Below are positions 2,291 through 52,366 of a stretch of DNA of 64,000 nucleotides, in pieces. The notes beneath the pieces were generated by a model. The model worked only from the letters and a program-made list of their open reading frames with translations, searched no databases and was not told where the DNA came from. The stretch comes from Poecilobothrus nobilitatus (Eukaryota; Arthropoda; Insecta; Diptera; Dolichopodidae): assembly GCA_947095535.1 (NCBI GenBank), contig OX352772.1, positions 95,399,207 to 95,463,206 on the forward strand. Reading direction: 5' to 3'. How positions within the stretch are numbered: position 1 is the stretch's first letter; each line of letters begins with the position of its first letter. Made by a program: the position numbers and the translations under genes.

Positions 2291-2389
2291 TTTAAGAATT
2301 ATAAAAATAAAATATTAATAAAATTATTTTGTGGACAAAATGTATAAATAAAAAACAATTTTTTACTCAATAAATCTAATAAAGATGTT

Positions 2390-31339: not shown

Positions 31340-31358
31340 AGTATGAAAATTGAAAGTA

Positions 31359-31850: not shown

Positions 31851-31979
31851 GTCGAAGGTTTATTGAAGAATGTTCCATAGAATAAAATTTACCTTTATAT
31901 TCACTTCGCTTTTCGTATAAATATAGGTTCACAAAGTTAGTTTTTAACTAATACAACTACTCTGTTTCACCCGTTTACT

Positions 31980-32543
31980 ATGATGGTGGCTGGTCCATCA
32001 TGCTGTGGTAAATCCACTTTTATTCATAATTTAATAAAATATAAAAAAGAAAATATACAACCACATATTAATAGAATAATTTGGTGTAATCCAGACAAAA
32101 ATGCTTTTCCAAAATATGTCAAAGATATGGAATATAGTAACACTATTCCAGATTTTAATGATAATCAAAAACCTTTTTTAATTATTATCGATGATATGAT
32201 GTTAAATTCTCATGATAAGTATGTATGTGAATTATTTACTAGAGGATCACATCATAGAAATTTATCTGTAATATTTGTAACACAAAATGTTTTTCACCAG
32301 GGTAAATTTTCAAGAGATATTTCACTTAACTGTAAATATTTAGTACTTTCCAAAAATCCAAGACATATATCGCAGATATTACCTCTAGCTCGCCAAATAT
32401 ATAACAATCAAATTAAAGCATTTGAAAAAGTATATAATGATGTGACGTCAGTCCCATATGGCTATATATTAATTGATCTTACTCAAGACGTTAATGATAT
32501 ATTTCGATTAAGAAGTGATATATTTGGAAAAGGTTTGTGTTAA
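31980..32543 (+). CDS. FtsK/HerA-type genome packaging ATPase (set A)
   Basis: 187 residues, apparently intact. Walker A is AGPSCCGKST at residues 4-13 and Walker B is FLIIIDDMM at about 61-69. The sensor region reads VIFVTQNVFHQGKFSRDIS, then YLVLSKNPRH and PYGYILIDL. This is the A32-like ATPase that pumps DNA into capsids of Polinton/adintovirus and related viruses. An in-frame TAG lies just upstream, followed by LFHPFT before the ATG; the family usually has a few more N-terminal residues, so the start may be eroded. pX-like follows. Confidence 0.9.
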   Translation: MMVAGPSCCGKSTFIHNLIKYKKENIQPHINRIIWCNPDKNAFPKYVKDMEYSNTIPDFNDNQKPFLIIIDDMMLNSHDKYVCELFTRGSHHRNLSVIFVTQNVFHQGKFSRDISLNCKYLVLSKNPRHISQILPLARQIYNNQIKAFEKVYNDVTSVPYGYILIDLTQDVNDIFRLRSDIFGKGLC

Positions 32544-33086: not shown

Positions 33087-34195
33087 AAACAAGGTAGAAT
33101 GTAAACCAACGGTTTTTAAAAGCGCACATTTCCAAAACACAATACAAACTGTTTATAATTGTGACTTGTACAAAAATTTTAAAATTTCATGTAATAACAA
33201 AATATGTGAAAATAGGACTTTTTTGCAATTTTGAGGGGCTGTAAGTCCGGAATCCTATATAACTAAGAAAAAACCGTTAACACACGTAAAAACATATTAT
33301 TGAACCTTTAATTTTCATGTCTTGCCGATGAAAAATTTTTACAGGTGCCTAAGTTACAGGTGTCTAAAAATAGCAAATTTTCAATTTTTGAGGCGTAATA
33401 ACTCTTAAAGACGGGGCGGTACCAAAAAATTTTCTGAGGAAACTTATACTAATTCTAAAAGTTCTTTCTTGTCTCAAAATTTCATGTTTCTATCTAAAGG
33501 CATGCCGGAGTGATGAAAAAAGAAATTTCATGCAAAATGTGGTTTTCATATAACGGTAAATTTAAATAGTAAATTACAAAATATTACATAATTTTGACAT
33601 TGTTTTATATAGATAATAACATTTTCTATCTTCTGGCGGTTATAGATTGCAAAACTATTACGCAGAGCCTGAGATATGTACATCTGAAAATGGGGCTTTT
33701 TCGCAATTTTGTTGAGTTGCAACTTTGGAACCCTTTACAACTAAAATAAACCTTTAACACACATTAAAATATATTACTGTAGCTTTAATTTTTATATCTT
33801 TCCGAAGTAAAATGTGTACAGGTTCCTAAGTTACAGGTGTTTAAAAATAGCAAATTTTCAATTTTTGAGCCCTAATAGCTCAATAAAAAAAATTTCTGAG
33901 CAAACCTATACTATGTTATGTTCTGCTTCAGATTGAGAAAATCTTAAGCAGAACATAAGATATACGCATTTAAAAATAGGGCTTTTTCAAAGTTTGAGGG
34001 GCTGTACCTCCGTAATGGATAGGGCTACATGAAAAAGTTGTTCCACAAAATTATTTTTTTTATGAGACCTACCCATGGTTAAAATTGTTTTTCTCTATCT
34101 TTAACGGTGTAGAACTTTTGTAAACAGACGGACGGACGAACGGACAGATTGAAACTAATAAGCACATTTTTTCAAAATTTTTTTGGAAATATACT
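33087..34195 (-). repeat. Dispersed repeat family M, copy 2
   Basis: Inverse orientation: it begins aaacaaggtagaatgtaaac and ends at the inverse of agyacatttcc. The cggacggacgaacggac tract is at about 34,128-34,144. It splits the ORF between pX and penton. No coding sequence. Confidence 0.8.
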
Positions 34196-34698
34196 AAAAA
34201 CGACAACTTCTTAGAAAAAAAGAGGAGAAAATAAAAATTACGGAAACAAAGGGTACTCAAACTAGTGCAAAACCAATGTATATAGATGCGGAAACTCAAT
34301 CGCATTTTCTTGAATATAAGAATGTTGGAATACAAGTTGTTTCTGAAGAAGAAGAAGTATATGAAAAAGAAGCTGATGACGAAGTATTTGATGATGAAAT
34401 TCAGGAAAATGTATTAACAAAAGCATTGTCAGCTGCTTCAGTTGGAGAACGTCTTAGAAAAAGAAAATCAATTAGAAATCAAAATGTACAAATTTTTGAA
34501 ACTGATACAGGAGACATTATAACTGTTCCTTTAGATAGACCAAGCCCACAAACGAAAAAAGAAAAAACTATAAATAGCAAAGAGTTGGATAATTCATCAA
34601 GACGTGTTTTAAGGTCAGCAGTAGGTAATACTCAAACAGAACTTAATTTTCCAATTCGTAAGAATAAATCCGCAAGATCATGGACAACATACAAGTAA
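34196..34698 (+). pseudogene. Conserved Polinton ORF between pX and penton (set A), second part
   Basis: The frame is open from about 34,192 (TKNDNFLEKKEE). It passes the ATG at 34,276 to an acidic stretch (EEEEVYEKEADDEVFDDE), a basic patch (RLRKRKSIRNQ), TGDIITVPLDRPSPQ and the ending ARSWTTYK. The set B equivalent (44,412-44,903) ends PEWTTYK. Its last codons overlap the penton start at 34,680. Confidence 0.7.
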
Positions 34699-35533
34699 AT
34701 GATGAATTTTATGTCAGTTTACTCAGTGACTCATCTATGAACTATTATCCAGAAAATTCATTATCATCTTTTACAAATAAAATGAATAAATACATGTGTG
34801 ATTCAAGGTGGAAAATCGATATTTCAGAAATGTATGTTAATGATTTCGTTCCAAATGTGTATGTTGAAGAATGGGAGAATAGTACTCAAATATTTATTAA
34901 AGGTATGCAGGAAGATATGATAGGAGTTGGACCATCATATATTCAATACATAGAAAAACAAATTATATGCGACTGGAAAGTTTTTCTACTACGAACACTA
35001 ATTCAAAATATACGCCCACTTAATAGGTTTACAAGAAAAGAAGTTAAACGACAGTTGATTTGGGGAATTTTATAAACGATGAAGTTCATTATACACAACC
35101 AACAAAAGCTGAGGAGAGGCCTAAAAATATAAGTTACACCACAATATGTGTTACTAGGCCTAAAATAGATATAAAAATAAGAGCAATTTACGCTTATACT
35201 CTCGAAGGACTTTTGACAACATGTTTCAATCAAATATCTTTTAAAGTTACAGATTTTAAAAAATATAAATCACGTGTAATAGAAGCTTTCAAAACTTTTA
35301 TAGATAGTGTACAATTGATTCCCATTATTAAACCAAATATGTTTTTTATATACACAGATATAACTGAACCGCAAAAAATAGGTAATAAAGATGTAAGGTG
35401 TTTAAGATCTGTTAACATACAAAATTCTTTCACTGATACTGTAAAAGAATTCAGTAATATTCAATATTGCAATGTGGAGAAATCATTTAATAACATTTCA
35501 TTACTTTTATGTGATAAATATGATACAAAATAA
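34680..35533 (+). pseudogene. Penton-like minor capsid protein (set A)
   Basis: Start MDNIQVNDEFYVSLLSDSSM, then YYPENSLSSFTNKM and WKIDISEMYVNDF: the N-terminus of the Polinton minor capsid (penton) protein, a predicted single jelly roll. The first frame ends at 35,075. The next frame (open from 35,060) continues through LEGLLTTCFNQISFKV, MFFIYTDITEPQ and LRSVNIQN, as expected for the C-terminal half. One frameshift near 35,060 therefore splits the gene. pVI-like follows after 102 bases. Confidence 0.78.
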
Positions 35534-35635
35534 ACTTTTCCAATAGTTCAATTCCAACAAAAATTGTATTACATTTTAAAAAAGTATAAATAAAAGCGAT
35601 TTTATAAAACTATATATTATTTTATTTTATTCATT

Positions 35636-35986
35636 ATGGAGAGAGAATACTATAAGTATTATTTAATTCAATCTGGTAGAGGACTTGATGATATCGGCCC
35701 TTTATTACATTCAACCGTACCTTTTCAAAGAGGTCGTGGATTGGCAAGCTTTTTAGGGGGACTTTTTAGATATTTGAAACCATTATTTACTTCAGGCGCT
35801 GATATTTTGAAAAAAGAGATTATTAACTCTGGTATCAATGCTTTATCTGATATTGCATATGGTGCAAATGTAAAAGAAGTTATGCAAGAACGTAGTAAAG
35901 AGACTGTTAAAAATGCCGCACGACGTGGTGCCGTACGAAAACTGAATGAAATGTATGGTTCTAGTTATAAAAAGACCATTCATTAG
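35636..35986 (+). CDS. pVI-like virion protein (set A)
   Basis: 116 residues, ATG at 35,636, intact. The N-terminus YKYYLIQSGRGLDD is followed by FQRGRGLASFLGGLFRYLKP, an amphipathic Gly-rich segment. NARRGAVRKL and a basic end complete it. This resembles the adenovirus protein VI-like (membrane-active or internal) protein of adintoviruses and Polintons. It lies between penton and major capsid as in those elements. There is no set B counterpart in the window. Confidence 0.7.
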   Translation: MEREYYKYYLIQSGRGLDDIGPLLHSTVPFQRGRGLASFLGGLFRYLKPLFTSGADILKKEIINSGINALSDIAYGANVKEVMQERSKETVKNAARRGAVRKLNEMYGSSYKKTIH

Positions 35987-36061
35987 AAATTTAAACTATT
36001 TTAAGTCAAAACGACGCAGAGATAATAACACAAAAAAACAGAAAGATATTTTTAATTAATT

Positions 36062-37363
36062 ATGATTGAGTGTATGAAATCTGAGTTGGATATTTTTAAA
36101 CCCCAAACCATTCAGTCTAGCATTTTACAATGTGAAGAAGTTTCCTACAATCCTATTTCTTCTTTAGGCAACCCTTCAACTGTTGAATTTGTTTCACTGG
36201 GTCATGGCGATACATATAGAGATTTGTCTTCTACATATTTGAGATTAAAAGTACAGATCTTAAAGAAAGATAGAACACAATGGAATAATGATAAAAATGC
36301 TGAAGGAAAAATAATAATACAACCAAGTGTAGTTAATAACATTTTACATTCTTTAATAAAACAATGTAATGTTCAATTAAATGGTAAAAATATAACACCA
36401 CCTGATGGAAATTATCACTATAGAGCTTATATTGAATCTTCATTAAATTATGATACAGATGCTGCTGCAACTCATTTAGAATGAGCAGGATGGATTTTAG
36501 ATAAAGCAAATACAGCTAAATCTGATAATAATGGTTCAAAAGAGCGCCAAAAATTGTATCATAATAGCAATGTAGTGGAATTTATGGGGAAACTACATTT
36601 AGATATGTTTAATCAACCTACTCTATTTATAAATAATGTTGACATTCGAATAGTTTTAACACTTGAAAAACCAGATTTTTATCTATTTGCAGACAATTCT
36701 GATGAATCACAATTAAAAATTATAGAAGCTACGCTATTTATGAGACATGTTACCGTTAATCCAAGCGTACTGTTAGCAGACAATCCTGTTCTTGAGAAAT
36801 CCAATGCTAAATATAATTATAAACGCGTTGAAGTAAAAAGTTTTACTATTCCAATGAACAGCTCGTCAATATCACTTGATAATGTTTTTATTGGACAATT
36901 GCCAAACACAATAATTTTTTGTATGACAGAAAATGTGGGTTACTCTGGAAAAAGATCAAAAAACCCATACAATTTTAAACATTTTGATATTTCACAATTT
37001 GTGTTAAACGTAAATGGTGTTCAAATACCTAATTCATCAATTGAAACCAGTTTTTCAGATGAAAATAATTTCTGTACAAGAGCATATAGTACACTTATTT
37101 CAGGAACTGAAATTTACCAGAATGATAAAGGTCATCAGATAACAAAGTCTATGTTTAATAATGGATTTTTTATACTAGCTTTTGATTTAACTACAGGTGC
37201 ATCTGGAAATGAAGTATGTCAAGGTTTACTAAACCAGGGTACAGTTAGAATTGAAGGCAAGGCTATCAAAACCACTTAAATCTACACTAATTGCTATTGT
37301 TTATAAAGAATTTGATGCAAACATACAAATTGATAAAAATGGAAATATATTTACAAATCTATA
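36062..37363 (+). pseudogene. Major capsid protein, double jelly roll (set A)
   Basis: The start is MIECMKSELDIFKPQTIQSS. Diagnostic blocks are FVSLGHGDTYRDLSSTYLRL, MGKLHLDMFNQPTLFINNVD (about 36,580), FMRHVTVNPSVLLAD, YKRVEVKSFTIPMNSSS, IGQLPNTIIFCM, NPYNFKHFDISQF and RAYSTLISGTEIY. This is the Polinton/adintovirus capsid protein. An in-frame TGA at 36,482-36,484 interrupts it (context HLE-stop-AGWILDK). A frameshift near 37,258 moves the last 35 residues to another frame, ending near 37,363. It is otherwise about full length. Confidence 0.9.
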
Positions 37364-37391
37364 AATAGGATACTGAAACATGTATTTGAAT

Positions 37392-37842
37392 ATTCGACAA
37401 GATGTTATAGTCCTGTTCACATGTGGATGTAAAGTTTTGTTGTGATGATAAAAATACTTTATTTGTAAAAGATATTTGTTTAGTTGGAATTAAAGACCCT
37501 TGTAAAAATTTGTAAAAGAGTTTACTTACAAATTTCCAACCAAAGAAATTGTAAATGAAAATTTTGAAAATTACTCTTTCGGAACTGTACATAATGATAA
37601 AATTAATAAAGAATTAAGACAAGATACACAATAAAAATGCTGAATCAAATGTAGGGAATATGTTATTAAATATATCAAAATGTAACACAAAAAACATTTT
37701 ATAAAATTGCGCGAAGAAATATATATTCCAATACAACGTTATAGCGTTCAATGCAATTATTCTAGATTGTTTTTTGAAATACCTGTACTACTAGAAAATA
37801 AAATTTGTAATATTTTATTCAAGAACAAAAATAATTGAAAAA
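37392..37842 (+). pseudogene. Fused remnants of two downstream Polinton genes (set A, left copy)
   Basis: The first part (to about 37,618) matches 47,419-47,641 almost base for base (KEFTYKFPTKEIVNENF..NDKINKELR). It then jumps to sequence equivalent to 48,515-48,727 (EEIYIPIQRYSVQCNYSRL, ICNILFKN). The protease and the gene after it, which lie between those points in the right copy, are missing. An internal deletion of about 0.9 kb joined the two. Confidence 0.75.
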
Positions 37843-38530
37843 TTTGTAAAATTTTTATGCAAATTAGGTGTTTGTAAATAATATAGATTATATGTTATTA
37901 AAAGTTCAATGACTTAAACAAAGTGTCGTGAATAATTCAATTTCCGGAACAAGCTTTTGTAAATAATAGACAAGGTCAACTAGATAATGTAGAAAAAGTA
38001 AGTGCAATGATCTAAATAGATGTTGTAATATATAGTATTTTTTACCGCTTGCATAATTAATTTCCGAAAACAGCTTTTGTAAATAATAGAAAGAGATAAT
38101 GTATAACAAGTAAGTGCAATGATCTGTTTTATATTGGTCGAAACAGGTGTTGTACTATAATAACATAGACTATGCAAATAATATGCAATAATTTATTTAT
38201 ATTGTTAATAAAAAGCTTTCACGGTCAACCAGTTGACAATATAGGTAACATAATATTAACGCAAAAAATGCAGTTAATTATGAGATAAATAAAATGCAGA
38301 TATTGATCTTGTTATTGTATCTTGGTTTTAAAGTAATTTAAAGTAAAGGTTGTATGTATAAAATCATGAGGAAAAAAGTTGCGTTTAGTGATTAATTGTT
38401 ATGTTTAATTGAAAAAAAATTTAATATAGAACAAGATTTATTGAAATTACTTTGAGGTATTATGTAAATTTGAGGTATGTCAACTATATGTGTGTTGGAG
38501 GTAAACCAAATGTGCTATAAACTATAAGCA
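37843..38530. other. AT-rich region with a partial duplication
   Basis: aatttccg(ga)a.cagcttttgtaaataatag..aagtaagtgcaatgatct occurs at about 37,939-38,013 and 38,060-38,125. aaaaagttgcgtttagtgat at 38,376 recurs as a diverged copy at 40,889. No gene is seen; short open frames on the minus strand follow the repeat. Confidence 0.5.
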
Positions 38531-40883
38531 AAACAAGTAAATGTAACAGTAAGTCGATGCAACCGACTTATTAATACTCTACACCTGAATAATTCGAATT
38601 AAATTAAAAATCCATAAGTTTTTTTGGCTGCTGCTTCAACTTCTTCCCTTTTCTGTTTTATTCAACTCGAATTTCAGGAACGTAAAAGAAGCATCCTCTT
38701 GGGATATGCTTGAAACCTTTGTAAAACATTTTAAGTTTCTATCTTTATTAATTTCGAAGATCGTTAGTCCTTGGGAGGTGTGTGTCAGGTACCCGAATTG
38801 CCACTCCAACTCATCGAATCCATCTCAGAAACATAAAGAAAACATGCCAGAACACCATTGTACTAAATTTAAAGGTTCTACTTTTGTTGGTTTTGGAGAT
38901 ATGCTCGTTGCTCTTGTGCTCGTCCGGAAGTTTCCAAAATACGAACCCATGGTTCAAATTCTTTCAAATGTCAGTTTCCAATTTTATAGAAAAGAAAACA
39001 TAACAGCACACTCTTGTACTAAAAATAAAGGTTCTATCTTTGTTGGTTGTGGAGATATACTCGTTTGCTCTGGGGCTCGTTCGGGAGCTTCCAAGATAAG
39101 AACCCATGAACCAAATCCTCTTAAATTTCAGAGACATAAATCGAACGGGAAGGAACATCATTGTAAAAAATTTATGGTTCTATCTTTGTTGATTTTGGAG
39201 ATAATCTCGTTTGCTCTGGGGTTCGTTCGGAAGCTTCCAAAATCCGAACCCATGGACCTAATCCTCTCAAATTTCAGAGACATAAATCAAACATGAAAGA
39301 GCACCATTCTGCAAAAAATTTAAAGGTTATATCTTTGTTGTTTTTGGAGATAATCTCATTTGCTCTGGGGCTCGTTCGGAAGCTTCCAAAATCCAAACCC
39401 ATAGACCAAATCCTCTCAAATTTCAGAGACCTAAATCAAACATGAAAGAACACCATTCTGATAAATTTGAAGGATATATCTTTGTTGTTTTTGGAGATAA
39501 TCTCATATGCTCTGCGGTTCGTTCGGAAGCTTATGGACTATATCCTCTTAATCCAAACATATGGACTACATCCTCTTAAATTTCAGAGACAAAAATCAAA
39601 CGGGAAGGAACATCATTGTAAAAAATTTAAAGGTTCTATCTTTGTTGGTTTTGGAGATAATCTCGTTTGCTCTGGGGCTCGTTCGGAAGCTTCCAATATA
39701 CGAATCCATAGTTCAAATTCTTTCAAATGTCAGTTTCCAATTTTATAGAAAAGGAAACATAACAGCACACTCTTGTACAAAATTTAAAGGTTATATCTTT
39801 GTTTGTTTTGGAGAAAATCTCATTTGCTCTGGTGCTCGTTCGGAAGCTTCCAAAACCCAAACCCATGGACCAAATCCTCTTAAATTTCAGAGACATAAAT
39901 CGAACGGGAAGGAACATCATTGTACAAAATTTGAAGGTTCTATCTTTATTTGATTTTGGAGATAATTTCGTTTGCTCTGGGGCTCGTTCGGAAGCTTCCA
40001 AAATCCAAACCCATAGACCAAATCCTCTCAAATTTCAGAGACCTAAATCAAACATGAAAGAACACCATTCTGATAAATTTGAAGGTTATATCTTTGTTGT
40101 TTTTGGAGATAATCTCATATGCTCTGCGGTTCGTTCGGAAGCTTATGGACTATATCCTCTTAATCCAAACATATGGACTACATCCTCTTAAATTTCAGAG
40201 ACAAAAATCAAACGGGAAGGAACATCATTGTAAAAAATGTAAAGGTTCTATCTTTGTTGGTTTTGGAGATAATCTCGTTTGCTCTGGGGCTCGTTCGGAA
40301 GCTTCCAATATACGAATCCATAGTTCAAATTCTTTCAAATGTCAGTTTCCAATTTTATAGAAAAGGAAACATAACAGCACACTCTTGTACAAAATTTAAA
40401 GGTTATATCTTTGTTTGTTTTGGAGATAATCTCATTTGCTCTGGTGCTCGTTCGGAAGCTTCCAAAACCCAAACCCATGGACCAAATCCTCTTAAATTTC
40501 AGAGACATAAATCGAACGGGAAGAAACATCATTGTACAAAATTTAAAGCTTCTATCTTTGTTGGTTTTGGAGATAATCTCGTTTGCTCCGGAATCATTCG
40601 GAAGCTTCCAGAATCCGAACCCATGGACAGATTTTGTCCAGATTCGCACTTAGCCTTCCTTTCGTAATTAGTAACCAACTATATAAATTTCATCAAGATA
40701 GCTTCATTAGTTTTTTAGTTATCGTTTAAACGGACGGACGGACGGGCGGACATCACTAAAGCGACTCAGGAGGTGATCCTGATTCAGAATATATATACAT
40801 GTCCATATCTAACTCGCTTCCTTTTGGTGGTTACAAACACCATGCCAAAGTTAATATACCCTATACTTCATGTGTAGGGTATA
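38531..40883 (-). mobile_element. Family T element, inverse copy inside the Polinton
   Basis: It mirrors 27,863-29,963. It starts aaacaagtaaatgtaacagt with the cgatgcaaccgactta hairpin and contains 146-150 bp units. It ends in cggacggacggacgggcgga (40,734-40,753) and tgtgtagggtata. A higher-order repeat is seen: 39,441-39,930 recurs at 40,053-40,542 (612-bp offset). Its open frames are by-products of the array. Confidence 0.8.
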
Positions 40884-41129
40884 AAAAAAAAGTTGTATTT
40901 AGCGATTAATTGTTATGTTTAAGAAAAACTATTTTTAATATAGAACCACATATTTTTTTTATGTTCTTGTAAATTACTTTGTATTATGCAATTTTTATGT
41001 TCTTGCAAATTACTTCATATAATGTAAAATTCAGGTATGTTATTGAAACCAATAAATGGGCAAAAAGAAAATTTAACAAAAAATTGTAAAATAAAAAAAA
41101 TGTAAATTAAGTTTCATATAATATCGTTT
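40884..41129. other. AT-rich junction region
   Basis: ttttatgttcttgtaaattac is repeated at 40,958 and 40,996. Nothing coding is visible. The boundary between set A and set B on this side should lie between about 37,850 and 41,130. Confidence 0.4.
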
Positions 41130-41967
41130 TTATTTACCCAAGAAATGTGTCTTTAGCAAAACCTAACCATTTAACAAAAATCTGATTTCCTTTTCTTTTC
41201 AATATTTTTTAAACAAGAAAAATATCAAGATTTTTGACTCGAGTAAGTTCAGGCTCGTAAAAAGAACCTGAAATCGGTGTTTTTGTACAATCAAGTAAGT
41301 TGTAAGTAATTGGATCTGTGCGTTTTACTTCTTTAATTGTAAATAATTCTGTTGACCAGTTTGGTTGATAACCTTTTGCAAGGTTTCCTTTGTATTTACT
41401 TATGCGTATATAATCTCCATTTTTGTATTTTACTTTCTGATAAAATTTCGGTTGCATGTAAATGTTCTTCAAAATATATTTCTCGTTTGCTTTTGTAACT
41501 TTTTAGGTTGAAGTTTAATTGTACGATGATATGTTGAATTGTATTTCTCAATAAGTGAGGGTAAAATAGATATCCATTTAAAATTACCTTGAAAACTAAA
41601 CTGTTTCCACATTGAATTTTTTAAAGTCCGGTTAAAACGTTCTACTAAACGAAAAAACTAACTTAACTTAAAAACTTTAGTTAAAACTTCTAAACGAAAA
41701 ACTCTTTACCTTCATCAGATTGAATATTTTTTGGGTGTATTCCAGCACGTTTCGGTGTGTTCCAAGCAAAATGTTATTAGCATTTTTAGTTTTAATTGGC
41801 TCAGCATAAGCATACTTCGAAAAAGTGTCTATTACAGTTAATAAAAATTTATTTCCTTTGTTATGCTTTGTATATGGAATCATTTCCTTGGAATCATTAA
41901 ACCTTTTTGAATAAATTTTCTTCGACAAAAGTTTCATCTGGCTGATCTATGTATTTCCGATACTATG
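41130..41967 (-). pseudogene. Polinton integrase (set B)
   Basis: Read leftwards: an IHRSAR-like start near 41,965, EMIPYTKHNKGNKFLLTVID with the first catalytic Asp (about 41,845), and SKYAYAEPIKTKNA. The second Asp block (IQSDEGKEFF) is in another frame. The catalytic-Glu block is VERFNRTLK-like near 41,640, then MQPKFYQKVKYKNGDYIRIS and the chromodomain-like end NQIFVKWLGFAKDT (41,140-41,180). There are several frameshifts and a stop after FLV at 41,209. By eye roughly 60% of residues agree with the set A integrase at 49,241-50,114, in opposite orientation, so this is a different lineage. Confidence 0.8.
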
Positions 41968-42335
41968 TGTGCCCTTGACATTATGCTTGTATCATTTACT
42001 AAGATTTTCCAATTCTATTTTATAATTTTCTATAGAGCAACAATTACAAGTATCCGGTCAAGATGACGAGTTGTCGTAAGCCCAAGGACAAAGAGCAAAA
42101 TGAGTTCCGTATATTGACGTAAATTCTGTTGTTGAAAATGCTTTAACGTATTTATACATGTGAAAAATACGTTGCTTATGCTCATTTAATAAGACAGGAA
42201 TATAATTTTAAAAATTTTTCCACTTCTTCCACCTTCATCTTTGAAAATGAGAATAAGGTATAATAAAAGGAATAACGTAAACCTTTGCTACTTTTATATA
42301 TTTGAAGAACAAATCTAATTACCTTTTAATGACTT
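41968..42335. other. Unassigned stretch between integrase B and ATPase B
   Basis: A minus-strand reading (FHMYKYVKAFSTTEF, FALCPWAYDNSSS, CNCCSIENYK) looks like decayed coding sequence but I do not recognise it. The divergent promoters of integrase and ATPase would be here. Confidence 0.35.
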
Positions 42336-42880
42336 TTGAAGCGAACCAATAATGATAATTTTTATCATCTATTTACAATGATGGTAGCGGGACCATCTGG
42401 ATGTGGAAAAACAACATTCTTATGTAACTTAATTAAAAATATTAACAGATTGATACATCCAAAAATTGAAAAAATAAAATGGTGTAACCCAGAAATGTCT
42501 GCTATTCCAAAAAGTATAAATTTCCCTGATATATATTTTTATAACAAAATACCAGAAGAGCTTGGGCAAAATAAACCTACTTTAATTGTTTTAGATGATT
42601 TAATGTTAGATTCTGCAAATAAACAGGTATGCGAACTTTTTACTAAAGGTTCGCACCTTCGCAATTTATGTATTATATTATTAACGCAAAACGTTTTTCA
42701 TCAGGGAAAATTCTCCCAAGATATTTTATTATATTGTAAATAATTGGTGCTTTTCAAAAACCCTCCAGACAAATCACAGATTTTTCCTCTAGCTAGACAA
42801 CTATCCGGAAAATATAAAAGGTTTCCCTGAGGGTATATAATGAATCAACCTCAAGTCCACATGATTATATTGTGTTATAT
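42336..42880 (+). pseudogene. Packaging ATPase (set B), first part
   Basis: FYHLFTMMVAGPSGCGKTTF holds Walker A. LIVLDDLMLDS is Walker B, and LLTQNVFHQGKFSQDI the sensor block. A stop follows at LYCK (42,741-42,743). The frame then reads LVLFKNPPDKSQIFPLARQL and degenerates to HDYIVLY, where the mariner-like element inserts. The sequence resumes at 44,172 with LTQDVNNLFRIGN. It is clearly diverged from ATPase A; I judge somewhat over half of residues shared. Confidence 0.85.
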
Positions 42881-44171
42881 GGGTGTTCAAAATTGAGGTA
42901 TCATTTTAATTTTAATAAAAAAATACTTTTTTTTTGAAATATTAAATATATTTTCATTTTAATTTATTACAAATAGGTTCCGGTTAATAATGAAAAATTA
43001 TGTCGGGCAAGTGGTCTCCTCTACTACTTCGGCAGGCTTCCAATCTTTTACCAAAATTCTGAATCACGTTGTTCAATAAACTGTTCTCAATGGTTGAAAT
43101 CTGCTCGATAATGTTGTTTTTAAGCTCTTGAATTGTTGTGGGATTATTGCTGTACACTTTCGATTTCACAAAACCCCGCAAAAAAAAAATCCAACGGTGT
43201 CAAATCGCACGATCTTGGTGGCCACATCAGTCCTCCTCTACGAGAAATAATGCGATTTTCGAACTTTTCCTTCAAAAGATCCATTGTTTCTTTTGCTGTC
43301 TGGCAAGTGGCACCGTCTTGTTGAAACTACATATTCTCTAAGTCCAAATCATCAATTTTCCGCCACAAAAAGCTTCGGATCATCTCCCTGTAGCGATTTC
43401 CATTGACCGTAATCGCATTTTCATTTGCGTTTTCAAAAAAATATGGTCCGATGATTCCTCCTGATCACAAACCACACCAAACCGTAACTTTTTGTGGATG
43501 TACTGGTTGCTCTAAGATAACCCTTGGATTCTCTTCACCCCAAATGCGGCAATTCTGTTTATTGACGTAGCCATTGAGCTGGAAATGAGCTTCGTCGGTG
43601 AAGATTATTTTGTTAAAAAAATTCTCATTTTCTTCTTGTTTTTCGATTGCCCAAGAAACGAATTGCCGACGTAATGCATGGTCAGTTAGTTTTAATTCTT
43701 GCGTCAACTGGATCTTATAAGCCTTTAAATGGAGATCACGATGTAAAATGTTGAATAATGTGGATGGTTTGATGTTTAATTGCTGCGAACGATGACGAAT
43801 GGAAATTTTTGGATCTTCTTCAACACTTCTGCTCCATTCTCTGTTGAACGACCATTACGTTGATAAATGTTGCCTCTGTTATCAAGAACAGATCCAGTTT
43901 CTAGAAATTTATCAACCATCAGCTTGATGGCACGATTTGTTGGAGCATTTTCTCTACCAAATTTTGTTCGAAATTTCCTAATTATATTTTGAAAACTTTT
44001 ACCATTTTCAAAAAATGTTGTAATAACAAAAACACGTTGTTCCTTCGTGTAACGTTCCATATTAACTAACCGGAATGTATTTAGAATATACCTAAAGAAA
44101 CCTCGTATAAAAATTTCAGGTAGAAAAAAAATGGCGGCAAAATCAAAATGATACCTCAATTTTGAACACCC
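42881..44171 (-). mobile_element. Tc1/mariner-superfamily element
   Basis: About 1.29 kb with inverted ends of at least 27 bp. gggtgttcaaaattgaggta at 42,881 is the inverse of tacctcaattttgaacaccc ending at 44,171. Flanks are tatat on the left and tatattt on the right, compatible with a TA target. The exact first base is ambiguous because left and right differ by one base. It splits the set B ATPase gene. Confidence 0.88.
42984..44060 (-). pseudogene. Mariner-type transposase, inactivated
   Basis: ATG at 44,058-44,060 (MERYTKEQRVFVITTFFENG). The helix-turn-helix half runs to about 43,800, where a frameshift occurs. The catalytic half shows KIIFTDEAHFQLNGYVNKQN (first Asp, about 43,605), HPQKVTVWCGL, FQQDGATCQTA (second Asp, about 43,310) and PPRSCDLTPLDFFL (third Asp). 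Two Trp codons have become stops: after WCGL (43,465) and before FQQDG (about 43,330). Otherwise close to full length. Confidence 0.85.
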
Positions 44172-44411
44172 TATATTTAACACAAGACGTTAACAATTTG
44201 TTTCGTATTGGAAATAATATTTTTTGAAAAGAATATATGCTACTGTGATACGGGTGATTTGAATAACAGCTGTCAAAAATTAAATGTATTCTTAATTGTA
44301 TTCTTAAATATTGTGATGATGATATTATAAAAACTATTGCTGAAATTGCAATCAATATATTAATAGACACGCAATTACATATAAAAGCACGCAAAAAGAT
44401 TACCAGAAAAG
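44172..44411 (+). pseudogene. ATPase end and pX-like remnant (set B)
   Basis: LTQDVNNLFRIGNNIF closes the ATPase. DDDIIKTIAEIAINILIDTQ and ARKK correspond to the DCEVIKTFCEIYLNTL part of the set A pX-like protein. The GGFL tail is absent, so the gene is truncated. Confidence 0.55.
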
Positions 44412-44903
44412 GATAATAATCTTACATTTGATACAGACACTCAAACAAAATTCTTTTCTAAACGAAATGCATATACAGAAACTGTATTACCTAAATACAA
44501 ATTAACACTAGAACAGACCGATTTTGTACCATTAGTAACTGACGATATGTTTGAATATGACGCTAAAAAAGAATATTCAAATATGGATATCGATTTATCA
44601 CATTACGATTTGGATGATGAAAATTCATTTAAAAAATTAGCTCAAACTGAAATGTTGAAAGATGAAAAATTAGTAGAAAGACCATCTCTAAGCTCTGATT
44701 ATCGAATGTTTGAAACACCAAGTGGTGATGCAGTTACCGTTCCTGTACCATCTCCTCAAAAGCACAAGACACTTAGATCGGCCGGTAGTGCAATTTCCTC
44801 CACTATACTTTCACAGTTTCCTGAAACAAAACAACGAAAACTAAAACCATTACTTAGAAGTCCAAAACTTTCATTAACACCAGAATGGACAACATATAAA
44901 TAG
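44412..44903 (+). pseudogene. Conserved Polinton ORF before penton (set B)
   Basis: The frame is open from 44,412 (DNNLTFDTDTQTKFF) through the ATG at 44,547 to PEWTTYK. It shares MFETPSGDAVTVPVPSPQ with the set A TGDIITVPLDRPSPQ region. It is acidic first and basic later. Its 5-prime third (the MNNITFNK-like part) is missing. Confidence 0.65.
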
Positions 44904-44937
44904 TACAACATTTTATGTTTTGCAAGAAGTTAACAAA

Positions 44938-45354
44938 GATGGATAGTCAAGATGACTTCTATGTAACATTATTTAGTAATAATAGTCTAAAACTATTTCC
45001 AGACAACATTTTAGCTTCATTCGAAAATAAATTACCTAATCACTTTGATTTAAGAATTAGAAATTAGAAAGTTGGTCTTTCAGAAATATATCTGAACGAT
45101 TTCCTACAAACAGAAGAATTTAACAAAGAGAAATGTGCCTTTATGAATATTGGGCAGTATAATGTTTATGTAAGAAACATTGAAAATCCTCTCCAAAAAT
45201 TTAAAGTAACCAAATCTATAGGTTACACATATTATTCATATGACGATTTAGAATTACATTTGGATGATTGGAAGTTTTATTTTTTGCCAACGCTTATTAA
45301 AAATATAACTCCTAATTCCGGGTTTACTCGAAACCAAGTTTTCAAAGAATTTTC
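44938..45354 (+). pseudogene. Penton-like minor capsid protein (set B), first part
   Basis: MDSQDDFYVTLFSNNSLKLF, FPDNILASFENKLP, then a stop at 45,065-45,067 and VGLSEIYLNDF; from 45,143 the frame runs to GFTRNQVFKEF. This parallels the set A penton but is clearly diverged. Family M interrupts it at 45,355. Confidence 0.75.
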
Positions 45355-46593
45355 AGCACATTTCAAAAAAAAATTTTAAAAAATGTGCCTATTAGTTTCA
45401 CTCTGTACATCCATCTGTCCGACTGTTTACAAAACTTCTACACCGTTAAAGATAGAGAAAAAAAATTTTAATCATGGGTAGGTCTCATAAAAAAATTAAT
45501 TTTGTGGAACAACTTTTTCATGTAGCCCCCTCCATCAGGGCACTAAATCCCCTCAAAAAAACCCTATTTTTAAATGCGTATATTTTATGTTCCACTTAAC
45601 ATATTTTGAATCTGAAAACGCCATTGGACAGAAATTTTTTTTACCTTTATAAACCAATATCAAAATTATATATATTTTTTAAATTTAGTATATAAATTAA
45701 CCGTTATGTGAAAACCAAATTTTGCATGATTTTTCTACCTTCATAACTCCGGCACGCTTTTAGATAGAGGCTTGAAATTTTGAGGCAAGAAAGAACTTTT
45801 AGATTAAGTATAAGTTTGCTCAGAACATTTTTTTGTACCGCCCCCTGCTTAAACTATTAGGGCTCCAAAATTGAAAATTTGCTATTTTTAAACACTTGTA
45901 CACATTTTCTTCGGCAAAACAAAACAATTAAAGCTACAGTAATATATTTTTATGTGTACTAATTAAAAAAAATTGTACAGGGCTCCAAAGTTACAGCCCC
46001 CCAAAATTGCAAAAAAGCCCTATTTTCAGATGTACATATCTCAGGCTCTGTGTAGTAATTTTACAATCTAAACTAAAAGACCAATAATTTTCTTAACTCT
46101 ATAAAACAATATCCAAATTATGCAATATTATGTGATTTACTATTTAAATTTACCGTTAAGTGTAAACAAAATTTTGTATGATATTTCTTTTAACTCCGGC
46201 ACGCTTTGAGATATGAACCTGAAATTTTGAGACAAGAAAGTACTTTTAGAATAAATATAAGCTTTCTTAGAAAAATTTTTCGTACCGGTGCCTGCTTAAG
46301 AGGTATTAAAGCTTAAAAATTAAAAATTTGCTATTGCACCTGACAAATTTTTCTTCAGCAAAACTTAAAAATTAAAGCTCCAGTAATATATTTGTACGTG
46401 TGTTAACGGTTTTTCTTAGTTATATAGTTTCCGGACTTACAGTCCCGCAAAATTCCAGAAAAGTCTAATTTCACGTTTTTTCTTATTACATGAAATTTTC
46501 AAATTTATGTGCAAGTCACAATTCTGAGCAGTTTGTATTGCCTTTTGGAAATGTGCGCTTTTAAAAACCTTTGGTTTACATTCTACCTTGTTT
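45355..46593 (+). repeat. Dispersed repeat family M, copy 3
   Basis: About 1.24 kb, same orientation as copy 1. It contains the uninterrupted equivalent of the LTR insertion site (tgtacgtgtgttaacggttt, about 46,394). It ends ctaccttgttt at 46,593, after which penton sequence resumes. Confidence 0.82.
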
Positions 46594-47005
46594 AATGAAG
46601 TTTTGACATATATCTCTACTCCTAAAAATTATGACGATATAATATATATTTAAAAAAATGTCAGAATCTAACCGAGGGGAATTAATTTGAATATCGCAGA
46701 CTTTTGATGAAAATAGTTTCTATATAAAAGTTAATCAAAGTTATAATGTAAAAACAATACTAACTGTTGTTGATGAATTGAATGGAATGGTGATGATTTA
46801 TTCAGATATAGTTCAATCATCTGGAAGTAACAAAGTGCGGGCGTTGAGAGCTATCAACATACAAAATTGTAGAATACCTACAAATATTGAATTTGAAAAT
46901 GTCCATTACATACCTATAGAAAAAAATTGTTTTGAAACGATAGCGATCAAAATTGGCGGTGATGGAATAATTTTAAATACAATTTGTGTATTTACAAATT
47001 GTATA
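46594..47005 (+). pseudogene. Penton-like minor capsid protein (set B), second part
   Basis: Degenerate text to about 46,700, then FDENSFYIKVNQSYNV, MVMIYSDIVQSSGSNKVRAL, IPTNIEFENVHYIPIEKNCF and ETIAIKI, as in penton C-termini. At TNCIQF it stops in a sequence (tatacaattttaaac) shared with the A-type MCP. There the penton passes into capsid sequence, with pVI and most of MCP skipped. Confidence 0.75.
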
Positions 47006-47381
47006 CAATTTTAAACATTTTGATATTTCACAATTTGTGTTAAACGTAAATGGTGTTCAAATACCTAATTTAGCAATTGAAACCAGTTTTTCTGATGAAA
47101 ATAATTGCTGTACAAGAGCATACAGTACACTTTTATCAGGAACTGGAATTTACCACAATGATAAAGGTCATGAGATAACAAAGTCTATGTTTAGTAATGT
47201 ATTTTTTATACTAGCTTTTGATTTAACTCGAGATGCATCTGGAAATGAAGTATGTCAAGTTTTACTAAACCAGGGTACAGTCATAATTGAGGCAAGGCTA
47301 TCAAAACCACTTACATCTACACTAACTGTTATTGTTTATGGAGAATTTGATGCAAGCATACAAATTAATAAAAAAATATAA
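46992..47381 (+). pseudogene. Major capsid protein C-terminus (A-type, right copy)
   Basis: FKHFDISQFVLNVNGVQIPN, RAYSTLLSGTGIYHNDKGHE and ILAFDL, ending in LTVIVYGEFDASIQI. Nearly identical to 36,975-37,363 and better preserved at the end, since the frameshift of the left copy is absent. The first two thirds of the gene are missing. Confidence 0.85.
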
Positions 47382-47418
47382 ATAGAATATTGAAACATGT
47401 ATTTGAATATTCGACAAG

Positions 47419-47781
47419 ATGTCATCGTCCTGTGCACTTGTGGATGTGAAGTTTTGTTGTGATGATAAAAATACTTTATTTGTAAAAGATATTTGTTTAG
47501 TTGGAATTAAAGAACCTTGTAAAAAATTTGTAAAAGAGTTTACTTACAAATTCCCAACAAAAGAAATTATAAATGAAAATTTTGATAATTACTCTTTTGG
47601 AACTGTACATAATGATAAAATTAATAAAGAATTAAGAGAGGTACTAGGAAAATTTGATGTTATTATAACAAATGAAAAAATAGAAAAGGAGTTTTTAATG
47701 AACTATATTAATGAAATAAGTAGAGTGTATGATTTGAGTCAGTTTGAGTTTGCTTTAGACAAAATTCCAATAATATATTAA
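47419..47781 (+). CDS. Polinton-associated ORF, unknown function, probably fused to protease N-terminus
   Basis: 120 residues. The first part (KKFVKEFTYKFPTKEI, FDVIITNEKIEKEFLMNYIN) resembles the 31,359-31,850 protein. The last residues (FEFALDKIPIIY) look like the start of the adenain-type protease, which continues in the adjacent frame. A deletion may have joined two genes. The fragment at 37,392-37,618 is its duplicate. Confidence 0.5.
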   Translation: MSSSCALVDVKFCCDDKNTLFVKDICLVGIKEPCKKFVKEFTYKFPTKEIINENFDNYSFGTVHNDKINKELREVLGKFDVIITNEKIEKEFLMNYINEISRVYDLSQFEFALDKIPIIY

Positions 47782-48167
47782 AAACAACTTTTTTAATTGT
47801 AAACACTGACAAAATAAAAGATACGGGAACACATTGGTTTGCCCTTTATATTTCAACTCATGGTTGCACAGAATATTTTGATTCGTATGGTGGAGTTCCA
47901 GATAAACCGGAAATTTTGGAGTAGTTAAAAAATCAGTGCATAGTTTTTAATAATAGGCAGATACATTATATTCTTTCAGATGTATGGGAGCAATACTGTT
48001 GCGTTTTTGGCTGGTATAGATGTTTTGGTTTAAGTATGAAAACTTTTTTGAATCAATTTCACAAAGATAATCATATAGAAAACGGCAATCTGATTATTAA
48101 TATGTTTTACATTTTTTTTGGAAATTCAAATTTTTCACAATCTTGTGTACCTCAGCAATATAATTAA
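47782..48167 (+). pseudogene. Adenain-like cysteine protease (capsid maturation), inactivated
   Basis: VNTDKIKDTGTHWFALYIST carries the catalytic His. EYFDSYGGVPDKPEILE carries the acidic residue, then a stop (47,923-47,925). IHYILSDVWEQYCCVFGWYRC follows. Polinton and adenovirus proteases have DVCGxYC in that last block. Here the Cys-Gly pair reads Trp-Glu (about 47,979-47,996), so the nucleophile seems lost. It would have processed capsid precursors. There is no copy in the left half, where this region is deleted. Confidence 0.75.
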
Positions 48168-48196
48168 TATTAAAAAGCTTTAGTTAAAACGTAGTA

Positions 48197-48728
48197 ATGG
48201 AAGATCAAGGTTCGAACACAAATTTGATGTTGAGCTATACATATTTTCTCAATAGAAATCAGTCATTAAAAGTTCTTGTTGGTTTTGATACAGAACCTCT
48301 TGTAACAATTTGCTTTTTTCACCGTGACACCATGATTGGTGTAAGTTCCATCAACAATTTTATGAAAGGTACTCGAACGAAACAATCAATAAAGAATACA
48401 AAATTATGTTTACAATATGGGTTAAGAATTGTTATTGGCTGATGTCTTAGTATTAACAACGACGAAGCTGACATATTTTACAACTTAATTGATTTTTCTT
48501 CAAGCTGTAATGATGCACAATAAAAGTGCTGAATCAAATGTACGGGAATATGCTATTAAATATATAAAAACGTGTCAAGAAGAACATGTTATGAAATTGC
48601 ATGAAGAAATATATATTCCAATACAACGTTATAGCGTTCAATGCAATTATTCTAGATTGTTTTTTGAAATACCTGTACTGCTAGAAAATAAAATTTGTAA
48701 TATTTTAGTCAAGAACAATAATAAATGA
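48197..48728 (+). pseudogene. Conserved Polinton protein, unknown function, frameshifted
   Basis: The first frame (81 residues from 48,197; MEDQGSNTNLML, then HRDTMIGVSSINNFMKG and LCLQYGLRIVIG) stops at 48,442. The continuation INNDEADIFYNLIDF lies in the same frame after the stop. The end (AESNVREYAIKYIKTC, EEIYIPIQRYSVQCNYSRL) is in another frame. No motif is recognised. The end is duplicated at about 37,630-37,842. Confidence 0.5.
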
Positions 48729-48810
48729 AAAATTTGTAAAATTTATATAATTTGTTTTTATTATGAAATACTTATAGATACATATACATTTATACAAATA
48801 TTCTTATATA

Positions 48811-49080
48811 TTATTTTAGGCTATAAATTATTTCTAAAAAATCCTGACTATTTGGATCTCCTTCTTGGTTATTTATTTCCCAAATTTGTTGCTCATCTGT
48901 ATCTTCATCTAAAACTTGAAACGGTGGTATGAATTCTTCAGTTTCCATTAATTTCTCCTCATCTACAGGAGATGTAATTTCATCAACTTGGACCTCATTT
49001 TGTGTACTGCCTATTGTATTTTCCTCAGTAAATGGAAATGTTGTTGAATCAGCTGCCATTTTTGTAAAATATCTTACCAA
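48811..49080 (-). CDS. Small acidic protein, unknown
   Basis: 89 residues, Glu/Asp-rich (VDEEKLMETEEFIPPF, LDEDTDEQQIWEINNQEG), ATG at 49,080; an internal Met (MAADSTTFPF) could be the start. No family is recognised. It lies in the opposite orientation between the conserved protein and integrase A. The acidic composition would suit a regulatory or scaffold protein, but that is a guess. Confidence 0.4.
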   Translation of the reverse strand: MVRYFTKMAADSTTFPFTEENTIGSTQNEVQVDEITSPVDEEKLMETEEFIPPFQVLDEDTDEQQIWEINNQEGDPNSQDFLEIIYSLK

Positions 49081-49240
49081 AATTGAATTAAAAATGATTT
49101 GCCAGTAAAATGGAACCGGGTTATATTCTGTAGAACACAGTCAAAATTTAAAGTTTTCAGAGTATATAAATAAAGAAATGTAAAATTGGATTTTTAAAAC
49201 TAGTTAGATGGTGTAAAAATCATGTCAAGATCTTAAATAG

Positions 49241-50114
49241 TAAAAGAAATACATAGACCAGTTAGAAAAAAGTAATCTTAGAAGGAAAGTCAAGGGAAGG
49301 AGTAAATGATACCTGGCAAATTGATCTAGTGGAAATGATTCCTTATGAAATAACCGTTATAGATATATTTTCTAAATATGCTAATGCTGAACTAATTAAA
49401 ACTAAAACCGGTAGTAATGTTTTAAATACTTTAAAGAAAATTATAAAACGAGCTAAAAACTTATCTAAAAACATTCATTCAGATCAAGGTAAAAAATTTT
49501 TCAATTCGATATTTCAAAATTTTGTTGTAAAGAAGGGTATTAATCACTATCATACATACTATGAAATTAAAGCATCTGTTGTAGAACGCTTTAATCGAAC
49601 TTTGAAACATTTAATGTGCAAAATATTTAGTTTACAAGGAAACTACAAATGGATTAATATATTGCAATCTTTATTAAACACCTATAATTCCACTAAACAT
49701 AGAACAACTAAATTACCCCCTGAAAGAATTTTTAAGAAAAATGAAAAATTTATTTTAAAAAATGCTTACATGCAACCTAAAATTTCTTTAAAAGCTAAAT
49801 ATAAAGTTGGAGACTACGTTAGAATAAGTAAATACAAAAACACTTTTGAAAAAAGTTATCAACCTAATTGGTCTACTGAAATTTTTAAAATTATCAAAGT
49901 AAACACTACCTATCCGATCACATATCAGCTGATTGATTATAAAAATGATTTAATATTTGGTGGATTTTATGAGGAGGAACTCACATCTGTTAAACACCCA
50001 AACGTATATCTTGTCGAGAAAATTTTAAAGAAAAAAGGCAATAAAGTTTTTGTTAAATGACTTCGGTTTGACGAAAAACATAACACATGGATAAATTCAA
50101 GAAATATTATTTAA
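49241..50114 (+). pseudogene. Polinton integrase (set A)
   Basis: The N-terminal remnant KEIHRPVRKK (49,244) is followed by a frame break and DTWQIDLVEMIPYEITVIDI, which lacks the residues between MIPY and the first Asp. The DDE core is complete: VIDIFSKY, NIHSDQGKKFF, SVVERFNRTLK. Then LPPERIFKK, KYKVGDYVRISKYK, NWSTEIFKI and a chromodomain-like end, with a TGA (50,058-50,060) in place of Trp in VK-W-LRFDEKHNTWI. This enzyme class inserts the element and makes 6-bp duplications, matching GTCGAC. Confidence 0.85.
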
Positions 50115-50156
50115 TATATGTAAAAAAAAATTTTAATAAGTATCTGAAAAATTTGC

Positions 50157-50305
50157 TAACATCTGAAAAATAAAATAAAATCTTAACATCTGAAAATAAA
50201 ATAAAATCCTAACATCTGAAAAATAAAATAAAATCATAACATCTGAAAAATAAAATAAAATCCTAATATCTGAAAAATAAAATAAAATCCTAACATCTGA
50301 AAAAT
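50157..50305. repeat. 29-bp minisatellite, about five units
   Basis: Units of taacatctgaaaaataaaat plus aaaatcc are repeated with single-base variants between integrase A and polymerase A. Positions 50,306-50,585 are AT-rich without a gene. Confidence 0.85.
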
Positions 50306-50585
50306 GAAAATTAATTTAGAACAGTACAAAATTTATTTGAATAAAATTTTTTATTGAACAAATTCTTTATATAAAATTCTTAATATAAAAACATAATTCT
50401 TAATATATAATAATTCTTAATATAGAATAAATTATATAACATAAAAGCTTAAACTATAATTATTGTTTTGTGGCGAATTGAAAATCACCACGTTCTTCTT
50501 TTTAGATTAACTCATTTTCCTCGTTTACGAGGAAATAAGTATTTTTTTCGATTTCCTCTCGGAAATCATTATCTTCAAATATCTT

Positions 50586-51839
50586 CAAATACTTTATGGC
50601 GGAAGAACGGGAAATACTTACACATATTATAAATGTACACAAGGAGAAAAAATTAAATACATAGATGTATGTTCCTTATACCCAATGTTTGCAAACGAGG
50701 GAAATTTCCTAAGATTTATGTTGTTACCATCCTAAGATTTATGTTGGAGAAGATACCTGCTCCAAGTTAAACAGAATGACTATTGACGGTATTATTAAAT
50801 GTAAAATCTTACCACCAACAAATTTATTACACCCCGTGTTACCTGTCAAACAAAATAATAAATTGATGTTCTCACTATGTAGCACTTGCAGCGAACAAAA
50901 ATATCAGGGAAAATACTGTGAACATGCACACGATGAAAGAGCATTAGTAGGAACTTGGATAATTGATGAAATTAAAAAAGTAATTGAAGAAGGGTATAAA
51001 CTTTTAAATATTTATGAAATTTGGGAATACGCAACAGTAAAATATGACAATTGCAAAGGTATTGATGGTTTATTCACTAAAATGATGACAAATTTATAAA
51101 GATTAAACAAGAAGCTTCTGGGTGGCCAATAAAATATCAAACTCAAAAAGAAAAGGAAGAATATATTGATAGTTTTTTTGAAAAGGAAGAAATTAAATTA
51201 GAATACGATAAAATAGTTAGTAACCCTGGTTTAAGATCTTTTGCTAAGATTATTTTAAACTCATGCTGGGGAAAATTTGGGCAAAGAGAAAATCAACAAC
51301 AAACCACGATTATAAATCAACCTTTTAAACTTTACAAGTTAATAACAAACCCGTCCGTAGAAGTATGTCACATATTCCCAGTAAATGAAGAAAACATAGT
51401 GGTTAGCTGGAAATATAAAGAAGAAGCAGTAACTTCTTTATCTACTGTCAACGTAAGTATGGCTGCTTATACAACAACACATGCTCGTCTTCAACTTTAC
51501 AGTTATATAGAGAAGCTGGATAGTAGAGTATTATATTATGACACCAATTCGGTGTTGTATATTAGCCGAGAAGGAGAATATGAAACAGAAATAGGTGAGT
51601 TTATAAGAGACATGACTGATGAGTTAGAATGTTATGGTATAGGAAGTTATATTACAGAATTTGTAAGTGGTGGTCCCAAGAACTACGCCTACAAAATTTA
51701 CTGTACAAAAGATAATACAGAAAAAATTGTTTGTAAAGGTAAAGATTTCTCTCTTAGTTATGAACCTTCTCTAAAAATTAATTTTAATAGCATGAAGGAA
51801 ACAGTTTTAAATTCATTGAATAGTGCAGACACGAAATAA
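50586..51839 (+). pseudogene. Protein-primed DNA polymerase B (Polinton A), C-terminal half
   Basis: LYGGRTGNTYTYYKCTQGEK (about 50,598) leads to motif A, YIDVCSLYP (50,661-50,687). Cys/His-rich insert text (CSTCSEQKYQGKYCEH), then motif B, KIILNSCWGKFGQRENQ (about 51,247-51,297), follow. Motif C is YYDTNSVLYI (51,534-51,563). GGPKNYAYKI follows. Motif C should be DTDS; here the second Asp codon is aat (Asn), which would abolish catalysis. The exonuclease and N-terminal domains are missing. Frames change at about 50,720 and 51,100. Motif A differs from lineage C (ANNLYG), so this is another polymerase type. Confidence 0.87.
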
Positions 51840-52366
51840 AAATCATGAATGTACTTACAATCCCCGAAATAAAAAAATATCAACCAAAATCGGAAAAACG
51901 AAAACTTAATGAAGATGTAGTTCTTTACCGTATGGATATAACAAAAAAAAAGCACGTGTTGATAAGTAAATCAAAATCGTATTCATTCAAATTTGTACAT
52001 TTTTATTTGTATCTATTGTAAAAATATTTGTTTGTAAATATATTAATTTACAATTTTTAAGAATGTAATAATAAAAAAAATTTCTACATGTAAAAGTAGA
52101 CATTATTTACATTTACATATATAAGTATATACAGTCCTATACTTTCGATTTCTTTTATGATCATTACATTTTTCAGAATCTTAATAAATTCACAATAAAT
52201 TCTTAACATAAACTCGTTATTACTTGAATATTGTAATTTTTTAAAACCAGGAACTATACTATCATAGAATCATTTAACTTTTAACTAGTGATTTGTATAC
52301 TCGTATATTATTTTAACAATAACAAAACAAGTCTTAATTTTTTTTTTTTTTAGTTTAAAACTAAAG
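51840..52366. other. Region between polymerase and right TIR
   Basis: A possible polymerase tail (IPEIKKYQPKSEKRKLNED, about 51,860) fades into AT-rich DNA. Nothing else is seen. Confidence 0.4.

Follow-up and report, generated by a model that had tools for sequence, protein, structure and literature searches.

We analysed a 64,000-nucleotide stretch of the Poecilobothrus nobilitatus genome (the window; contig OX352772.1, G000:C1, positions 95,399,207-95,463,206; genome 943.8 Mb, 84 contigs). Window positions 30,034-53,453 form a single Polinton/adintovirus-type element with inverted ends and a 6-base-pair (bp) target duplication, GTCGAC. The element is of two lineages, being a Polinton of one lineage (A) that holds an internal block of another (B), a structure of which we are nearly certain. 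Its parts, including open reading frames (ORFs), terminal inverted repeats (TIRs), two copies of a repeated A segment (R1 and R2) and the two joints of the block (J1 and J2), are as follows.

30,028-30,033: left target-site duplication GTCGAC, identical to the six bases at 53,454-53,459
30,034-31,029, plus strand: left TIR, starting AGTAGGTAACC
31,112-31,859, minus strand: A left gene(s); 31,115-31,363 matches PP1c_bdg (PPP1R15/GADD34 type)
31,941-32,543, plus strand: packaging ATPase A (Pox_A32; placed by tree; copies at 95-97% in its own genome)
33,093-34,172, minus strand: later transposon insertion in the left part of A; repeat family also at 4,482-5,577 and 45,350-46,598
34,198-34,698, plus strand: pre-penton ORF A
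34,668-35,533, plus strand: penton-position gene A, two overlapping ORFs; penton identity by position
35,594-35,986, plus strand: small ORF between penton and major capsid gene; no Pfam match
36,056-37,279, plus strand: major-capsid-position gene A; identity by position
36,967-37,858, plus strand: left copy of the A repeat (R1), extending from the capsid C-terminus slightly beyond the protease region, 874 bp missing
37,859-38,530, plus strand: the B block begins here, at the left joint (J1); 38,243-38,490 is homologous to DNA next to the integrase of other B copies, 37,859-38,242 unassigned
38,531-40,887: insertion of c.147-bp satellite repeats; inverted relative at 27,859-29,963
41,118-41,946, minus strand: integrase B, broken; three fragments at 89%, 89% and 75% to P0161, placed by tree
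42,333-c.42,840, plus strand: packaging ATPase B; stop at the end of the first 136 codons
42,881-44,171, minus strand: later insertion with the Pfam DUF4817 helix-turn-helix, which we take from its protein to be mariner-like
44,385-44,903, plus strand: pre-penton ORF B
44,900-45,349, plus strand: penton-position gene B, first part
45,350-46,598, plus strand: later transposon inside the B penton gene
46,599-47,002, plus strand: penton-position gene B, last part, to the right joint (J2); ORF 46,599-46,990
47,003-48,748, plus strand: right copy of the A repeat (R2), capsid C-terminus, putative protease and next gene
48,811-49,140, minus strand: A small gene
49,266-50,060, plus strand: integrase A, right-hand (Pfam rve, E 9.5e-13); with A copies in the tree
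50,511-52,021, plus strand: type B DNA polymerase, C-terminal part, broken (DNA_pol_B_2, E 7.5e-10)
52,367-53,453, minus strand: right TIR, motif AGTAGGTAACC inward from 53,453
53,454-53,459: right target-site duplication GTCGAC, matching 30,028-30,033

The right-hand ORF encodes a retrovirus-type integrase with adintovirus integrases among its best matches; rve alone was found in it, and the chromodomain PF00385 is listed for some relatives. A type B DNA polymerase is represented by its C-terminal part only, and both ATPase copies are of the FtsK/A32 type, with Pox_A32 matches above the cut-off and, for ATPase B, an adintovirus FtsK-like protein among the matches. The adenovirus-type protease region gave a Peptidase_C5 match of E 0.017 (15.3 bits against a cut-off of 21.3). 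Capsid and penton pieces had no Pfam match and were assigned by gene position; PDB searches with the capsid and polymerase pieces returned nothing useful, the capsid piece having no match. An IMG/VR search with the integrase returned 18 loci matching at 21-33%, which we judged to be unrelated prokaryote-virus transposases. No relatives were found in IMG/VR with the ATPase alignment, nor in the prokaryote genomes searched.

The two TIRs differ at 91 of 967 aligned sites, and each is followed outwards by GTCGAC. An independent A copy (L057+L058, C1:219,946,169-219,960,601 by coordinates) has the same end motif with TATGGT flanking both sides, and AAAACG and AATAAC adjoin one end of two further copies. 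Other copies carry other 6-bp flanks, so the integration target is not fixed, and the matched GTCGAC pair most plausibly records a single integration. By simple arithmetic, the chance of a six-base flank match is about 1 in 4,096.

Between these ends, four genes occur twice in diverged form, the A and B copies being 57% identical for the ATPase, 31% for the pre-penton ORF, 32-50% for the penton pieces and 59% for the integrase piece; two diverged gene sets are present, far beyond chance. A protein search returned 498 relatives of ATPase A (120 listed) and 65 of ATPase B. Among the matches listed, ATPase A is closest to P0001 (88%) and P0002 (77%); ATPase B is closest to P0005 (85%) and P0013 (80%). 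In trees built from 59 of the 160 returned proteins, A grouped with P0001 and P0002 (support 100/100) and B with P0005 and P0013 (100/99), and forcing A and B into one clade was rejected by the approximately unbiased (AU) test (p 2.6e-88). The integrase search returned 1,664 relatives (120 listed); the right-hand integrase is 64% identical to P0161. P0161 and P0005 share a source and have the same listed longest contig, of 3,709 bases, which suggests that they may be neighbours on one contig. Integrase trees used 35 of the 120 listed relatives for the AU test and 15 of the 120 for a tree with genome copies. In the latter, the right-hand integrase grouped with the A copies L047, L049, L052 and L053 (98), and the B integrase fell in a 16-row clade of B copies that includes P0161 (99). 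In the ATPase trees and in this integrase tree, the two gene sets lie in different clades, each with its own outside relatives. Support is weaker with a 97-column integrase fragment alone, where A and B as one clade are not rejected (p 0.486).

Both lineages are abundant in the same genome. All 40 candidates scored for ATPase A matched (of 2,254 at first look), the other 39 lying at 95-97%, and so did all 40 scored for ATPase B (of 1,979), one at 99% and the rest at 90-94%. Seven 9.9-kb stretches around A ATPases (L047-L053) were compared with the window. Five of them (L047, L049, L050, L052 and L053) lack the B block and go directly from capsid gene to protease, with the integrase following inside the fetched stretch in four; L048 lacks the right part, and L051 is a mosaic described below. 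The outer parts of the window element are therefore of one lineage and adjoin in non-hybrid copies, and 18 other B copies were observed. An initial annotation of this stretch, made from its letters alone, had proposed two lineages inside one TIR pair with ATPase, pre-penton ORF, penton and integrase duplicated and diverged, set B lying between two pieces of set A, and something other than a simple tandem duplication; it had also predicted that the ATPases would fall in different clades and that the right part would group with A. All of this was borne out: A-type DNA is repeated on both sides of the block, and 47,003-53,453 groups with A in both the locus comparison and the integrase tree.

The B block spans approximately 37,859-47,002 and covers only the integrase-to-penton part of B. 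At J1, A homology stops at 37,854-37,858 and B is recognisable from 38,243, with 385 bases between. DNA like 38,243-38,490 adjoins the integrase in several B loci, so the block starts before the satellite-bearing insertion, and not at about 41,130 as first annotated. At J2, the 39 other scored matches end at query base 123/124, which corresponds to window 47,002/47,003. An 11-base word on both sides near J2 may be microhomology, a weak indication in such AT-rich DNA. J2 lies at the start of a capsid C-terminal stretch that was profiled in 14 loci of the 69 in the comparison set. Most match the window there at 92-95%; of the 13 with data, 12 fall within 90-95% and L050 is at 79%. Such conservation could favour joining there. 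More generally, copies that have otherwise diverged remain much more alike in the capsid C-terminus at 36,967-37,300 than in the DNA around it; selection and gene conversion are candidate causes.

On either side of the block lie R1 and R2, which the initial annotation had called nearly identical over the capsid C-terminus and the downstream ORF. They are in fact 91-92% identical with gaps and 92-94% without, differing at 40 of 634 and 19 of 236 sites, and 874 bp present in R2 (47,638-48,511) are missing from R1. Differences by codon position are roughly even in the R1/R2 capsid overlap (4/9/5 at positions 1/2/3), which was judged on these counts and not on synonymous and nonsynonymous ones, as a one-base gap shifts the frame. 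Between A and B they favour the third position (34/22/55 in the ATPase, 27/25/49 in the integrase). Because the A/B coding differences favour third positions and those of the R1/R2 capsid piece do not, A and B appear to have diverged as working genes, and R1 and R2 to have decayed without visible constraint.

Three transposons entered the element later. The insertion at 42,881-44,171 is absent at that site in all 18 other B loci, where its flanking DNA adjoins, so it is later. That at 45,350-46,598 is absent in L075, the sole B locus with both flanks, and that at 33,093-34,172 is absent in 8 of 10 fetched loci, the remaining two having no data there. The inverted satellite-built copy at 27,859-29,963 sits just outside the left end of the element. 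We considered this copy and its relative at 38,531-40,887 as agents of an inversion and do not favour the idea: the element as now arranged agrees with its matched target duplications, with the caveat that GTCGAC is palindromic.

Part of the hybrid occurs a second time. At C1:95,270,800-95,278,400, 166 kb upstream, lies a segmental copy of at least window 37,418-45,417 (at least 8 kb). It matches at 500 of 500 bases over 37,418-37,917, which hold J1 and its A flank, at 501 of 501 over 44,917-45,417 and at 99.8% over 40,833-44,351; by coordinates its satellite array is 464 bases shorter. Its ATPase B is the 99% match noted above, on the same chromosome; ATPase A and J2 were not found there in the genome searches (40 scored each). 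Because J1 and the A flank are also present, the upstream copy would be a duplicate of the hybrid region or its source: part of the hybrid appears to have been duplicated recently by the host or to have come from the upstream place. A recent arrival of B from this copy, as a plain B donor, is ruled out by the same A flank.

The order of events was addressed with private sites and with a tree of the repeat, for which 26 loci with at least 450 bp matched were used. Over 661 columns, R1 has 22 private sites and R2 has 11, with none common to both; three sites are shared by R2 and L050, and one by R1 and L052. R2 joins L050 in the tree (88/87), not R1. The two ends of the element share six private sites against four other ends. 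Because R1 and R2 have no shared private sites and R2 groups with L050, the two copies probably parted at or before integration. Private branches are 0.026-0.030 for two multi-gene stretches of the left part of A (0.019 for its ATPase alone) and 0.028-0.030 for the right part; those of B are 0.041-0.057, and B is not younger than the A parts.

From these data we favour joining at or before integration; otherwise the joining took place among separate old copies, and the matched flanks are then coincidental. Both joints would stem from template switching or illegitimate joining that involved the DNAs of co-resident elements. Copying or joining would have passed the A protease region and entered B beside its integrase; having reached the end of the B penton gene, it would have switched back to A where the conserved capsid C-terminus begins, thereby repeating that part of A. 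The hybrid would then have entered by a single integration (one 6-bp duplication), decayed and received transposon insertions, and a later host segmental duplication would have copied at least 8 kb of it 166 kb away. We give the whole account, an illegitimate recombinant made before or at integration and then integrated once, about an even chance of being right, timing being its uncertain step.

Several results weigh against it. R1 and R2 as sisters are not rejected (AU p 0.107), and their 59 differences in 870 sites against 91 in 967 for the ends (p 0.041) would suit a post-integration duplication, provided that the ends were identical at first. A later joining of two separate old A insertions would likewise leave R1 and R2 with no private sites in common. 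The J1-bearing locus has itself joined a recent host duplication, and J2 was found nowhere else in the same genome (40 scored of 2,316 candidates), so that the hybrid gives no sign of spread; a hybrid that had spread was accordingly discarded.

The main rival is a host rearrangement after integration: end joining, deletion or segmental duplication of chromosomal DNA would have brought old A and B copies together, and no mobile hybrid would have existed. In its favour, A and B copies are numerous in this genome, and some lie only tens of kb apart; the segment with J1 was recently duplicated, at 99.8-100% identity in three compared stretches; R1 and R2 behave as independent A copies; and their overlap has diverged slightly less than the ends. 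Such a rearrangement leaves GTCGAC at both ends to coincidence, although other copies carry other flanks, and the equal private branches of the left and right parts of A also speak against it. We regard it as a serious possibility, clearly short of an even one. The initial annotation had named recombination between co-resident elements or insertion of one into another, and the first is the origin that we favour. For the second, a complete B element would have integrated into A through its own integrase and later lost its right half, which agrees with B copies occurring as separate elements and with a block that starts near a possible B left side. Against it, the block yielded none of the capsid, protease and polymerase genes of B, and the A repeat of 0.9-1.75 kb around it is far longer than a 6-bp target duplication. 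No A-type TIR-like match was found beside the block, and neither B ends nor a target duplication could be recognised at the joints, a weak argument as the ends of B themselves were not identified. A plain nested jump is quite unlikely because no B ends were recognised at the joints.

An assembly error joining separate loci would suit a J2 seen once in a repeat-rich region of a genome rich in similar copies. At J1 such an error is unlikely because the joint was assembled twice, here and upstream, the two being 100% identical for 500 bp; the target duplications and ends match, and the contigs are chromosome-sized (378.7 Mb). We consider it very unlikely overall. An ordinary tandem duplication, with the copies of a single element then diverging fast, would yield four genes twice in the same order, but the two ATPases belong to separate clades that include relatives from outside, each has close copies of its own in the genome, and the AU test refutes this origin for the ATPase, leaving it extremely improbable.

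Joining of lineages is probably not confined to the window element. Starting at the left gene and reaching into the first part of the capsid gene, L051 matches the A of the window at 90-97%; over the stretch that runs from protease to integrase it matches at 58-74%. In L056, identity is 89-97% between ATPase and penton, 82-83% over most of the capsid gene and 67-76% beyond, and the integrase lies on the other strand. Both loci have a changed gene order or strand of integrase and polymerase. Because canonical A copies stay mostly at 90-97% throughout (single bins down to 77%), a difference in rate explains these profiles poorly, and L051 and L056 are likely to be independent mosaics. We tentatively propose, with confidence somewhat below even, that recombination between Polinton lineages takes place in animal cells while their DNA is extrachromosomal or replicating, through joining or template switching in and near the capsid C-terminus, that the hybrids integrate as single units, and that this genome holds both parents and several independent hybrids. 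At L055, an A-type ATPase fragment lies beside an integrase of a further lineage (with P0167 in the tree); besides A and B, the genome may hold at least four integrase lineages.

The minus-strand ORF at 31,115-31,363 matches PP1c_bdg above the cut-off (E 2.3e-8) and, by sequence, PPP1R15B/A and DP71L PDB chains (best E 9.8e-7), which suggests a gene like a protein phosphatase 1/eIF2alpha-type recruiter at the left end of A. In other A copies, similar DNA or protein stretches lie at the position of this ORF. Outside the element, long direct repeats, 93-96% identical, flank it at 24,222-26,902 and 57,022-63,086. Within 28-22,868, inverted arms (28-4,334 and 19,576-22,868, 93-98% identical) enclose a long terminal repeat (LTR) retrotransposon at 5,588-13,297, with repeats 99.8% identical, and a non-LTR retrotransposon at about 14,027-18,291.

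Gene swapping among Polintons and adintoviruses has mostly been inferred from gene trees of single genomes. Here, a hybrid stands beside non-hybrid parent copies in one genome, where joints, timing and direction can be read base by base. One can thereby test when modules for capsid and replication are swapped, before integration in a virus-like manner or afterwards by the host chromosome, and a decayed element becomes a readable trace of recombination among virus-like mobile elements. A literature search returned no title or abstract opening on a two-lineage Polinton hybrid inside one end pair, which is no proof of absence.

Compared with known Polinton/adintovirus-type elements, the window element agrees in its integrase, type B polymerase and packaging ATPase, in its inverted ends with a 6-bp target duplication and, putatively, in an adenovirus-type protease; it differs in being decayed, in its two lineages and in the PP1-binding ORF of the A lineage. 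Braconid wasps carry abundant Maverick/Polinton families (PMC6035795) and resemble this fly in having many copies of several lineages per genome, whereas hybrids are not described in the passages of that source on these families. Lineage swaps as such are of a kind already known in adintoviruses: the passages concerned in PMC11071296 report mixed hexon/PolB clades, duplicated pentons and duplicated hexons. The likeness lies in capsid and replication genes of different clades within one genome and in duplicated capsid genes. As described there, those adintoviruses are read-archive contigs, whereas the window holds an integrated copy with its ends and target duplication, accompanied in the same genome by non-hybrid copies of its parents.

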